DNA of 64,000 nt from Marixanthomonas spongiae (GTDB taxonomy: Bacteria > Bacteroidota > Bacteroidia > Flavobacteriales > Flavobacteriaceae), in the NCBI RefSeq assembly GCF_003095375.1, contig NZ_QEHR01000004.1, positions 186,001-250,000 of the forward strand, in the 5' to 3' direction. This document shows positions 31,159-35,605 of this stretch, piece by piece. Made by a program: the position numbers and the translations under genes. Each line of letters starts with the position of its first letter. Position 1 is the first letter of the stretch. The notes beneath the pieces are model-generated. The model made no database searches, had not been told where the DNA came from, and saw only the letters and a list, made by a program, of their open reading frames with translations.

Positions 31159-31767
31159 ATGGCTTTCGAATTACCGAAATTAGACTATGCTTTTGATGCT
31201 TTAGAACCTCACATTGATGCGAAAACGATGGAAATCCATCACGACAAACACCACAAAGGCTATACCGATAAATTAAATGCAGCCATTGAAGGAACCGACA
31301 AAGATGGTAAGACTATCGAGAATATTTTGAACAATCTTGATATGGACAATAAAGCCGTTCGTAATAATGGCGGCGGATTCTACAATCACCGTTTGTTTTG
31401 GGAAATTATGTCGCCCAATGGTGGCGGAAAACCTTCAGGTGCTTTAGCTGAAGCGATAAACAGTGCCTATGGAAGTTTTGAAGATTTTAAAGAGAAATTC
31501 TCTTCGGCGGCCAAAGGACAGTTTGGCTCAGGATGGGCTTGGTTGTGCGTGCACGATGGTGGAAAAGTGGAAATCTGTTCCACACCTAACCAAGACAACC
31601 CATTAATGCCGGGCGTAGGTTGTGGCGGCACCCCAATATTAGGCTTAGATGTATGGGAGCACGCCTATTACCTAAACTACCAAAACCGCAGGCCCGATTA
31701 TGTAAACGCATTTTTCAATGTGATAGATTGGGATGAAGTTTCTAAACGTTACGAGCAAAATAAATAA
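31159..31767 (+). CDS. sodA: Superoxide dismutase, manganese type
   Basis: This 202-residue cytoplasmic Fe/Mn-family enzyme dismutes superoxide. Metal ligands are a histidine in the MEIHHDKHH helix (~27-28), a histidine in NHRLFW (~79), and the aspartate and histidine of DVWEHAYY (~165-169). Metal type is read from two positions: the helix carries GGFYNH (glycine, Mn-like), and [10 protein letters not shown] supplies the active-site glutamine from the C-terminal half (Mn-like). Iron enzymes place that glutamine in the N-terminal helix instead. It is monocistronic, with a good terminator at 31791-31819. Confidence 0.95.
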
Positions 31768-32124: not shown

Positions 32125-32480
32125 AATTTTGACGCTTAAACTTACACGCGCGAGGCATAAAAAGATGGAAAGATCATGGGAAACTAAAAACGGCTCGCAA
32201 TAAAAGTGTATTTAATACGAATAAAGTTCTGGCTATTGCTCGCCACCCTTTTTAGATTTAGGGCATAAACCTACACGCTGGGGGTAAAAAGGTGGAAAGA
32301 TCATGGGGAACTAAAAACGGCTCGCAAGAAAAGGGCATTTAACAAGAGTAAAGTTCTGGCTATTGCTCGCCACCCCAAATTTGGCGCATAAAAAAAGGTG
32401 GAAAAAATCCACCTTTTTTTGCCCCAAATCTACCATGAACTTAACCTACTTATGCTATGGTATGGTTCAAATATAGGATA
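32125..32480. repeat. Repeat array 1: two ~127-bp units ending in two conserved hairpins
   Basis: Two direct units share taaac(c/t)tacacgc, ggaaagatcatggg, ctaaaaacggctcgcaa, aaagttctggctattgctcgccaccc and gggcataaacc. The anchor ctcgccaccc occurs at 32239 and 32366, giving a 127-bp period. The array ends in a 50-nt hairpin (32380-32429): outer stem tttgg/ccaaa, inner perfect 13-bp stem aaaaaaaggtgga/tccaccttttttt. A second hairpin (taccat 32431-32436 / atggta 32457-32462) encloses cttaacctacttatgc. The same 3' block recurs in array 2. No open frame covers it. Confidence 0.85.
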
Positions 32481-32690
32481 ATAATTCTTTCAGCTTCAGG
32501 TTTTTAGATAAAGTGCGTTAATTTTCGATTAAAAGATTAATTTTTATAGGTCTTTCTTTCGGAATATGGGTTTTGGACGAAGGACTTGCCAATAATGTAT
32601 CTTTTTCACTTTTCGGTTAACATATTGGCTCGCTAATATTGCTTTAACGTTATGTAAATGTAAATTTAAGGTTAACTTTTCAAATTTTTA

Positions 32691-32698
32691 TATATTTG
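32691..32698 (+). promoter_or_regulatory. -7 element for the small orphan gene
   Basis: TATATTTG matches TAnnTTTG 24 bp before the ATG at 32722. An ATG at 32711 is followed at once by a stop, so it is not the start. Bases 32481-32690 show nothing else I can name. Confidence 0.45.
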
Positions 32699-32721
32699 AG
32701 GTTGATAAAAATGAACGACTT

Positions 32722-33003
32722 ATGACTCATGACGATAACAAATATTATATACTGAAAATAAAATATTCGGTTCAGGAAATATCTGGAAAGAAAAAACATA
32801 CCAAAAGACCTATCCATAAGAATAAGAAACGCTACTTAATCAAAGACCTGCATTCGTTGGACCGCAAGTTTGAGGATATTGAACATACCCTGACCGAGGT
32901 TGATAAGCCTGATAAAAAGAATATTTTCAACATCTTGAAAAATTATGTGCTCAGGTTTGGGTCCAATTGCAACTCTACGTATCATAGGATGTTGCGGATA
33001 TAA
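32722..33003 (+). CDS. Small basic orphan protein between the two repeat arrays
   Basis: I do not recognise this 93-residue protein. It is lysine-rich (KKKHTKRPIHKNKKRY at ~25-40) and has no signal peptide or membrane segment. It has one predicted charged helix (LHSLDRKFEDIEHTLTEVD) and ends with RFGSNCNSTYHRMLRI. The basic stretch would suit nucleic-acid binding, which is inference. A promoter-like box sits just upstream, and the frame is the only plausible one in ~1 kb. It lies exactly between two related repeat arrays, so its role may be tied to them. It could also be a chance frame. Confidence 0.5.
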   Translation: MTHDDNKYYILKIKYSVQEISGKKKHTKRPIHKNKKRYLIKDLHSLDRKFEDIEHTLTEVDKPDKKNIFNILKNYVLRFGSNCNSTYHRMLRI

Positions 33004-33099
33004 ATTGAGGTTTCTGAATAAAATAAATAACATAACTCCCGTCCGCTAAATTTTATTCCTTTCCTGTAAGAAACTATGTAAAGCGTGTTAGAGGAGAAA

Positions 33100-33120
33100 T
33101 ATAAACGGCCCTTGATGAAA
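33100..33120. other. 21-bp exact match to the RNase HI gene at 36968-36988
   Basis: This intergenic stretch is identical over 21 bp to the part of the RNase HI gene that encodes FHQGPFI (residues 112-118). Flanks do not match well. It may be a small gene fragment or a chance match. The rest of 33004-33159 shows no feature I can support. Confidence 0.6.
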
Positions 33121-33159
33121 TTATTTCTTCAATTTTGATATAGCTTGTTATCTCTTTTG

Positions 33160-33605
33160 AGTTTAAAGTATAAACCTATAAACTGGAGCGTGAAAAGGCG
33201 AACAAGGTTCAAGAGCGGTGAAAACGGCTCGCAAGAAAAGCGCACGCGACAAGGGTAAAGCTAAGGCTATTGCTCACCAGTCTAGTTTGAGAATAGTTAA
33301 TAAGCTAAGCGCTGAAAGTAAAAAAGGGCGAATAAGCCCCAAAAAAGTGTGACATAGCCCGCCACTCTTTTTAGATTTTAGGGCATAAACCTGCACGCCG
33401 GGACGTGAAAAGGCAAAAAAGGTTCAAGAGCGGTGAAAACGGCTCGCAACCCAAATCTATCTTTAAGATTGAAATTTTAGGTATAGCTCGCCACCCCGAA
33501 TTTGGCGCATAAAAAAAGGCGAACAAGCGTTCACCTTTTTTTGCCCCAAATCTTACCATAAACTTAACCTACTTATGCTATGGTATAGATCAAATATATA
33601 GTATT
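33160..33605. repeat. Repeat array 2: diverged units and the same terminal hairpin block
   Basis: Units related to array 1 carry tataaacct, gcggtgaaaacggctcgcaa (33214 and 33432 regions), gctattgctcacc and a junction cgccactctttttagattttagggcataaacc that mirrors array 1. One intermediate unit (~33281-33367) is degenerate. The array ends with the 50-nt hairpin at 33501-33550: outer tttgg/ccaaa is unchanged, while the inner arms become aaaaaaagg-c-gaac / gttc-a-ccttttttt. The cttaacctacttatgctatggtat hairpin then follows (33551-33586). Inner-stem changes occur on both arms together, so the structure appears to be kept. Confidence 0.85.
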
Positions 33606-33706: not shown

Positions 33707-35605
33707 TTAGTAGGCCCGTTCTGGGTTTCCTTCGTAAAAATGGACGTACGCTTTATTTACTACGCGTTTTCCGCCGTCGGTTGGGTAATTGCCTGTAAAA
33801 TACCAATCGCCCAAATTTTTGGGACAGGCTTTGTGCAGGTCGTCCACCGACTGGAAAATCAACTTCACATCGGCTTGAATATCTTCAACACTTATGATCT
33901 CGGCTATCTTATCTGAAATTTCTTGATCACTGAACGGTGCATACAATTCTTTCACGTGATTTACTGTTTCATTGGTTTCTGTTTCAAGCTGTTCTTTGCA
34001 CTTGTTGTAAATTTCTTCAACAATACCATAGGTGCCTCGTTCTTTGTGCAGTGCCAAAGCAGCCTGAAAAGCCACTAAATCTTCCAACCGAGCCATGTCG
34101 ATACCATAACAATCGGGGTAACGAATTTGTGGTGCAGACGATACCACGATAATTTGCTTGGGGTGCAAGCGGTCTAACATTTTTAAAATGCTTTTTTTCA
34201 ACGTGGTTCCGCGTACAATGCTATCGTCGATTATAACCAAACTGTCCGTTGGCTTAACCACTCCGTAGGTAACATCGTACACGTGGGCTACCAAGTCGTC
34301 CCGGCTGCTGTCTTCGGTAATAAAGGTTCGCAGCTTAACGTCTTTAATCGCAATTTTTTCAGTACGTATTTTATGTTCTTGTATCTGCTGAAGCCTTTCG
34401 GTCGTTAAATTTCCTTCCTCTTTGAGAATGGCTTCGTTTTTCTGCTTGTTCAGTTCGTTTTGTGCAGCATCTAGCATGCCGTAGAACGACGTTTCAGCTG
34501 TATTCGGAATAAAAGAAAACACAGCGTTTTCGGTGTCGTGGTCTATTTCTTTTAATACCTTCGGCATGACGAGGCGGCCCAGTTCTTTCCGTTCTTCATA
34601 GATTTCGGCATCGCTTCCGCGGGAAAAATAAATACGCTCAAACGAACAGGATTTGCGTTCCAAAGGCTCCAATATCTTCTTTTCTGAAAAACTTCCGTCT
34701 TTTTTCAAAATAATGGCATGCCCCGGCTCTACTTCTTCAATAGTGTCAAAAGGCACGTTGAACACCGTCTGTATGGCCGGCCGTTCGGAAGCTACTACAA
34801 TCACTTCGTCATCTTTATAATAGTACGCTGGCCGTATCCCGGCAGGATCGCGTAATACAAAAGCATCGCCGTGTCCCAGCATACCTGCCATGGCGTAACC
34901 GCCATCCCAATCTTTGGCCGATTTTTTCAGTATTTTTTCTATTTTCAATTTTTCGGCGATAAAAGGAGAGGCTTCCATTTTGTTGAGCCCGGCCTTTTTC
35001 GCTTTTTTATAAAGTTTCCGGACGCCTTCATCGAGAAAATGGCCAATTTTTTCCATCACGGTAATGGTGTCGGCCTTTTCTTTCGGGTGCATGCCAAGCT
35101 TGATCAAGTTGTTGAACTGCTCGGTTGTGTTGGTCATGTTGAAGTTTCCGGCAATAATTAAATTACGGTGCATCCAGTTGTTTTGCCGTAAAAAAGGATG
35201 TACGTTTTCCACGCTGTTAATGCCAAAGGTGCCGTAGCGTACGTGGCCCAAAAATACTTCGCCTATATAGGGAATGTGCTTTTTTTGTGCGGCCACGTCG
35301 TCTTTATATTCCGGATGGTGTTCAAACGCTTCGTTAATGCGGCCGTTTATCTGGGCAAAAATATCCTGTATGGGTTGGGCTTTATTGGAGCGTACCCGGC
35401 TTATGTAGCGTTCCCCTGGCGAAACATCGAGCTTTATACTGGCAAAACCCGCACCGTCCTGGCCACGGTTGTGCTGTTTTTCCATCATCAAGTACATTTT
35501 GTTCACCCCGTAAAATGCCGTGCCATACTTTTCTTTGTAATATTCTAGTGGCTTTAGCAACCGGACCATTGCAATTCCGCATTCGTGTTTTAAAGCGTCG
35601 CTCAT
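33707..35605 (-). CDS. purF: Amidophosphoribosyltransferase-like protein
   Basis: This 632-residue protein has an N-terminal class II glutamine amidotransferase domain with catalytic cysteine C9 (HECGIAMVRL), plus KQHNRGQDGAG and GHVRYGTFG. A C-terminal phosphoribosyltransferase domain has the PRPP loop VIIDDSIVRGTTLKK. PurF transfers glutamine nitrogen to PRPP in the first committed step of purine synthesis. This form is ~130 residues longer than E. coli PurF, with the extra length between the two domains and at the C-terminus, as seen in other Bacteroidota. The purine gene purN lies nearby on the same strand. Confidence 0.9.
   Translation of the reverse strand: MSDALKHECGIAMVRLLKPLEYYKEKYGTAFYGVNKMYLMMEKQHNRGQDGAGFASIKLDVSPGERYISRVRSNKAQPIQDIFAQINGRINEAFEHHPEYKDDVAAQKKHIPYIGEVFLGHVRYGTFGINSVENVHPFLRQNNWMHRNLIIAGNFNMTNTTEQFNNLIKLGMHPKEKADTITVMEKIGHFLDEGVRKLYKKAKKAGLNKMEASPFIAEKLKIEKILKKSAKDWDGGYAMAGMLGHGDAFVLRDPAGIRPAYYYKDDEVIVVASERPAIQTVFNVPFDTIEEVEPGHAIILKKDGSFSEKKILEPLERKSCSFERIYFSRGSDAEIYEERKELGRLVMPKVLKEIDHDTENAVFSFIPNTAETSFYGMLDAAQNELNKQKNEAILKEEGNLTTERLQQIQEHKIRTEKIAIKDVKLRTFITEDSSRDDLVAHVYDVTYGVVKPTDSLVIIDDSIVRGTTLKKSILKMLDRLHPKQIIVVSSAPQIRYPDCYGIDMARLEDLVAFQAALALHKERGTYGIVEEIYNKCKEQLETETNETVNHVKELYAPFSDQEISDKIAEIISVEDIQADVKLIFQSVDDLHKACPKNLGDWYFTGNYPTDGGKRVVNKAYVHFYEGNPERAY

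Follow-up and report, generated by a model that had tools for sequence, protein, structure and literature searches.

The interval between sodA and a purF-like gene in Marixanthomonas spongiae raises the question of what two repeat arrays with hairpin ends, set on either side of a small orphan gene, are for; the window, by which we mean the whole stretch of DNA analysed, is 64,000 nt long. The first-pass annotation took the arrays as the main object, and offered a family of non-coding RNAs, a mobile element or a cassette carrying the orphan gene as explanations. The direct repeats and hairpins it described are real, but the key object is the terminal “cap” of each array and not the array itself: each cap is, by its sequence signals, a complete small-RNA (sRNA) gene of about 76 nt on the minus strand, with a promoter box, a 5′ part and an intrinsic terminator. 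We consider it very likely that these are two paralogous, family-conserved genes of trans-acting base-pairing sRNAs, whose pairing at start codons would block the translation of exported proteins. The promoter, strand, family-wide conservation and targets had all been missed at first reading. The features of the locus are listed below (CM, covariance model).

31159..31767, plus strand: sodA, convergent neighbour (Pfam Sod_Fe_N and Sod_Fe_C)
32187..32247, minus strand: array B unit 2 (sequence)
32314..32374, minus strand: array B unit 1 (sequence)
32389..32463, minus strand: sRNA copy B, predicted transcript with +1 at 32463 (CM E 3.5e-18; fold z -4.5)
32390..32420, minus strand: intrinsic terminator of copy B (13-nt perfect inverted repeat)
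32468..32475, minus strand: promoter -7 box TATATTTG of copy B (sequence; position conserved in homologues)
32496..32536 (approximate), minus strand: putative activator site of copy B, direct repeats TTTAATCGAAAA and TTTATCTAAAAA about 20 bp apart (operator logo; sequence)
32722..33003, plus strand: orphan ORF of 93 aa lying between the two sRNA genes (identity of 59-74% within the genus)
33221..33278, minus strand: array A unit closest to the orphan gene, GGTGAGC...GCGAGCCG (sequence)
33436..33495, minus strand: array A unit 1, tandem-GA hairpin GGTGGCGAGC...GCGAGCCG (sequence, fold)
33510..33586, minus strand: sRNA copy A, predicted transcript with +1 at 33586 (CM E 2.8e-17; TAnnTTTG spacing; fold z -4.0)
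33511..33542, minus strand: intrinsic terminator of copy A (14-nt inverted repeat, 93% complementary; stem covaries across homologues)
33591..33598, minus strand: promoter -7 box TATATTTG of copy A (sequence; position conserved in homologues)
33707..35605, minus strand: purF-like gene, codirectional upstream neighbour (TIGR01134 E 5e-38; “purF” is a label here, since the match lies below the curated cut-off)

Both arrays close with the same 62-nt block (32414-32475 and 33537-33598, 85% identical). What had been described as a “second hairpin”, around CTTAACCTACTTATG, belongs to the same minus-strand RNA as its 5′ stem-loop, and the plus strand, earlier taken as the sense strand of the hairpins, is the wrong one. 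On the minus strand both caps read TATATTTG, four bases, ATACCATAGCATAAGTAGGTTAAGTTYATGGTA(A)GATTTGGGGC, and then an A-rich stem-loop with a U-run. The 5′ part is 41 nt long and nearly invariant among 233 distinct copies, comprising a 5′ hairpin with little covariation (its sequence hardly varies), a AAGTAGGTT loop and a GATTTGGGGC linker. The terminator stem pairs over 12-16 bp in 232 of these 233 copies, even though its core occurs in 53 different versions (among them GGTGAAC/GTTCACC, GCATGAAC/GTTCATGC, and GTCGGAC/GTCCGGC). The inner-stem differences reported between the two window copies (GGTGGA/TCCACC and GGCGAAC/GTTCACC) are thus instances of terminator covariation, and hundreds of homologues bear out the selection on pairing that had been suggested from them. 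The two window copies have folding energies near -24 kcal/mol (z -4.0 and -4.5), and the terminal hairpin folds far better than its shuffles (z -4.0 to -5.2). Since the terminator is near-palindromic, it is the promoter box and the conserved 5′ part on which the strand assignment depends. The covariance model was built on a gap-free subset of copies with stated structure; RNAalifold on the first alignment was misleading because the lengths of the A-runs vary. A coding reading of the 5′ part (ATGGTAGATTTG...) was rejected by inspection: the extra A in ATGGTAAGATTTGGGG copies shifts the frame, and the extra base in copies reading ATGGTAAGATTT likewise breaks the only frame available, so the 5′ part is not coding.

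The -7 box keeps a fixed position across the 233 distinct copies. In Flavobacterium, TAnnTTTG at -12 to -5 is the housekeeping promoter box (PMC9723704), which would place the sRNA +1 on or beside the ACCAT that opens the 5′ hairpin. A positioned TAnnTTTG box and a covarying terminator are found together in more than 200 homologues, which is sequence evidence for the short transcription unit of a trans-encoded sRNA. Upstream of the -7 box, a logo of 171 non-redundant promoters reveals a strongly conserved direct repeat, TTNRNC.AA, with a 20-bp period, its proximal C lying 45-48 nt ahead of CCAT; this operator looks like a probable activator site. The LytTR consensus consists of direct repeats [TA][AC][CA]GTTN[AG][TG] about 21 bp apart; set against this consensus, the sRNA repeats (20-bp spacing, core [GT]TTN[AG]T) show a resemblance that we treat as a lead.

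The covariance-model search that the first-pass annotation had recommended found the RNA in 246 of the 299 Flavobacteriaceae genomes, about 237 of them at E<2e-8 (a manual table count), and an order- and class-wide search outside the family returned no match above about 42 bits. The sodA-purF interval was also compared across relatives, again as recommended: in all 103 loci with both flanks visible, purF is followed by one to three same-strand sRNAs and then by convergent sodA. The synteny loci were picked by motif, so presence and absence rates are to be taken from the model search. Some genomes carry extra sRNA copies away from purF-sodA. That the conserved block might be a cis-acting or DNA element (a bidirectional terminator or a protein-binding site) instead of an independent RNA is very unlikely: a location flanked by convergent sodA on one side and the purF strand on the other, together with the symmetry of the terminator's A-run and U-run, would suit such an element, but a terminator needs no invariant 41-nt extension, no -7 box of its own and no operator repeated with every tandem copy, and a cis role does not fit the additional copies at other sites.

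Tandem repeats with structured ends flanking a small gene are also what a non-autonomous mobile element or a cassette array carrying the orphan gene might look like, but the identical location in 103 of 103 loci, the confinement of own-genome matches to a single locus and the absence from viral contigs leave this with hardly any likelihood. Neither of these earlier proposals found support, given the constant purF/sodA position and a gap between sRNA copies that is usually about 200 bp long and without a gene. An integron attC array or mobile cassette was rejected as a class on the same fixed site, geneless spacing and single own-genome locus. The orphan ORF itself is confined mainly to the window's genus, had no Pfam match above cut-off and no NCBIfam match, was absent from the viral contigs searched, and probably lies outside the system. 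A phage DNA search gave nothing relevant to the locus; the exact sRNA core was found in none of the viral contigs, and the many matches there to a loose gapped core pattern were taken as chance.

A mismatch-pattern target search in one genus was weakly informative (it returned an infB leader) and led to a second RNA in the window's genus, encoded in the same genome as the first at a separate locus, G000:C6:136644-136729 (L241) on the minus strand, with the layout ACATAAGTAGGTTG-[hairpin]-GATCAAATTTGGGGC-[terminator] and its own TAnnTTTG-like box. It shares AAGTAGGTT and ATTTGGGGC with the first sRNA in another scaffold, matches no Rfam family, is kept in 7 of 7 genomes of the genus, and also occurs in three other genera. 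Elsewhere its inner hairpin is very different and self-complementary (GACACGCCTATAGGTGGGTC, TTCAGCTTAAGCTGA, GATGACTTAGGTTATC), with AAGTAGGTT and ATTTGGGG unchanged; the constancy of both motifs within differing hairpins therefore isolates two functional motifs. Separately, we observed an RNA-like element with a duplicated motif 2 (AAGTAGGTTTTGGTAGATTTGGGGCAACATGG...) at L294 and L295 (genomes G034 and G046), possibly a third member judging by its motifs. At the infB-like gene, AACTTTACCTACTTTTA lies just past the stop codon of a nusA-like gene upstream, some 55 nt ahead of the start of the infB-like N-terminus, in 6 of 7 genus genomes (L245, L246, L247), a possible further target.

A search with the two-motif pattern also matched, on the antisense side, a CAP-domain lipoprotein leader in two genera (an orthologue has the Pfam CAP domain). 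Of 84 relatives, 38 gave matches, one of them G000:C4:253306, which lies some 34 kb away from the sRNA genes, and in most genera the motif antisense lies at the start codon. The complementary site is TTAACCTACTTATG in L326, AACTTAACCTACTTA at -17 in L311, AACTTAACCTACTT at +13 in L293, and TGCCCCAAAT at about -27 throughout the window's genus. Because the site shifts between leader and codons with complementarity kept, plain leader conservation does not explain it. Predicted duplexes between CAP leaders and the sRNA have a median of -28.6 kcal/mol, compared with -16.8 kcal/mol for 160 random gene starts (P 8e-17, an optimistic value because the orthologues are related), and the CAP mRNA of G000 reaches -45 kcal/mol with the full sRNA 5′ part. 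The CAP homologue from an sRNA-less genome (G009, L329) had no excess pairing; some CAP leaders (L320, L322, L330) pair weakly despite the sRNA in their genomes.

The complementarity extends beyond CAP genes. We searched ACCTACTTATGAA in 149 genomes and examined 87 matches: ACCTACTT-ATGAA marked the start of an ORF of at least 80 aa in 51 of the 87, versus 1 of 30 for the reversed 8-mer before ATGAA (P 2e-8). The products of 40 of these 51 starts were predicted to be exported, against 44 of 165 baseline genes (27%; P 5e-11), ratios that are rough since export was called by a crude hydrophobicity heuristic and the baseline comes from 200 kb of stretches of one genome. The motif-2 complement (CCCAAA or CCAAAT) was present in 15 of the 51 leaders versus 5 of 160 (P 6e-7). 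Without the CAP genes, 33 of 44 were exported (P 1e-8) and 11 of 44 had the motif-2 complement (P 3e-5). In sRNA-less genomes only 1 of 7 matches was a start and none was exported (P 0.018 and 0.014; the numbers are small and the genomes were assigned by hand). Pfam domains among the predicted targets include T9SS sorting domains, CarboxypepD_reg of the TonB-dependent-receptor type, GH8, peptidase M57, PKD and cadherin lipoproteins, and TonB_C. The RNA thus carries a conserved seed, predicted to be unpaired, whose complement is found in unlinked mRNAs close to their start codons.

Two smaller observations concern AACCTACTT. It stands directly before the ATG of a conserved 22-aa hydrophobic ORF (of the MKNIKRIVLLVSLVVMVSKIFF type) in five genera (L354, L358, L365, L383, L386); the product may be a small membrane protein or a toxin-like peptide that the sRNA controls. 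In two genera, AACCTACTT-ATG also opens genes for LytTR response regulators (L355, L381), which are predicted sRNA targets; together with the LytTR-like promoter repeats, this makes a feedback loop conceivable.

We infer the following course of regulation. Transcription of each sRNA gene would run along the minus strand, starting at a housekeeping-type promoter of its own and ending at the intrinsic terminator, probably under the control of an activator bound to the two direct repeats about 20 bp apart. The RNA would expose two invariant unpaired stretches, AAGUAGGUU and GAUUUGGGGC, whose antiparallel, colinear partners would be ACCUACUU(AUG) and GCCCCAAAU around the start codons in mRNAs that encode exported proteins (lipoproteins, T9SS cargo and TonB-dependent receptors); pairing would span the start codon, CAU with AUG, AAGUAGGU with ACCUACUU, and GGGG with CCCC upstream. 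In the simplest outcome translation initiation of these proteins would be blocked, as by FopS on SusC mRNAs, and the sRNA would probably switch off envelope and secretion genes, although the direction could be activation instead of repression. The tandem copies probably raise dosage or separate inputs. Alternatively, the sRNA may titrate a protein in the manner of 6S or CsrB, making the start-codon matches secondary or coincidental. The near invariance of the whole 41-nt 5′ part, hairpin stem included, goes beyond what a seed needs and would suit titration, as would the multicopy tandem arrangement; but the complementarity at start codons shows strong enrichment, is limited to exported genes and changes position in CAP mRNAs, and the second scaffold keeps only the two motifs, so that we regard titration as unlikely and start-codon pairing as the better account.

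Rfam 15 holds no family matching the sRNA at gathering or permissive thresholds, and a literature search for the core sequence returned only an unrelated Candida paper. The closest counterparts are FopS/GibS of Bacteroides, sRNAs that form multicopy sets of paralogues, carry an unpaired seed ahead of an intrinsic terminator and bind the start regions of envelope (SusC) genes (PMC11697453). FopS, an Rfam-deposited RNA, is described as being conserved among Bacteroidaceae, its roughly 14 copies lying at separate loci (PMC11697453); the permissive scan (4227 models) listed no FopS match, FopS being perhaps not among the models. The flavobacterial sRNA likewise belongs to Bacteroidota, with multicopy paralogues, a seed plus terminator and predicted pairing at envelope-gene start regions. 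Unlike FopS, it is confined to Flavobacteriaceae and tandem at purF-sodA, with two motifs and a 5′ hairpin, and we claim no sequence homology; the comparison points to separate origins of envelope-directed multicopy sRNAs in Bacteroides and in flavobacteria. Many sRNAs are reported from F. psychrophilum and F. columnare transcriptomes (Rfp1-89 in F. psychrophilum; PMC9723704), and ours may already have been detected under one of these Rfp numbers. One of them, Rfp18, is described there as pairing through its third stem-loop with predicted targets in secreted metalloprotease and adhesin mRNAs (PMC9723704). Ours resembles it as a flavobacterial sRNA with predicted secreted-protein mRNA targets and looks different, going by that description, in having one 5′ hairpin plus the terminator (two hairpins), also in Flavobacterium copies. 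We call it a new family of a known kind, the base-pairing, envelope-directed, multicopy sRNA.

In enterobacterial envelope stress, MicA, RybB and MicL repress outer-membrane protein and lipoprotein mRNAs at the start codon, depending on Hfq and controlled by SigmaE; the flavobacterial sRNA would work in the same way on envelope mRNAs. The Qrr sRNAs of Vibrio are several near-identical genes at dispersed loci, each with its promoter and regulator site, under Sigma-54/LuxO control; ours are similarly several genes with a promoter and regulator site each, but in tandem. We know of no sequence relation of either group to the flavobacterial sRNA. Flavobacteriaceae are a major family of sea and soil, with fish pathogens among them, and their post-transcriptional control is almost unmapped; this syntenic RNA is a candidate for one of their core sRNAs. 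Its predicted regulon is concrete (exported proteins, lipoproteins, T9SS cargo), its pairing code is defined and an operator is at hand, so that work with genetically tractable flavobacteria could test it straight away.

The non-coding RNA proposal holds for the terminal hairpins and not for the 127-bp units; the 127-bp spacing itself applies to array B (103-nt copies at 32146/32273, 87% identical) and not to array A, where 84-nt copies at 33151/33366 are 215 bp apart and 82% identical. A whole-genome search with array B matched only its own locus, plus one chance-level match; array A, compared with 149 relatives, matched most Flavobacteriaceae genera tested over the terminal block and not the units, the best-conserved part being around window positions 33509-33600. 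A segment reaching from the terminator 3′ arm into the flank is tandemly duplicated in genera including Aequorivita, Ulvibacter and the window's own, and the 127-bp units are, on this comparison, a clade-specific tandem expansion of the structured 3′ flank of the sRNA. They follow, more or less degenerately, the pattern ...CCTTTTTTTATGCCCCAAATC-NN-GGGGTGGYGAGC-N(10-80)-GYGARCCGTTTC..., whose arms pair into a hairpin that contains, on the sRNA strand, a G.A/A.G tandem. Two of the pairs flanking it switch both bases (C-G to T-A) in different genera, though only one of these exceeds all shuffles. Beside this tandem-GA hairpin the units keep an antisense of the sRNA's GATTTGGGGC (CCCCAAATC or close variants), the same sequence that the target mRNAs use, though imperfectly in the window units (GCGCCAAAT, GCCCTAAATC). 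Within a transcript reading through the terminator, CCCCAAATC of the first unit is predicted to be able to pair in cis with GATTTGGGG of the sRNA, and a role of the units as decoy or attenuator is possible. From these retained antisense copies one might go further and suppose, though we think it rather improbable, that in array-bearing genera the read-through RNA over the units is a built-in decoy, so that the locus would make both a regulator and a sponge whose strength is tuned by tandem duplication.
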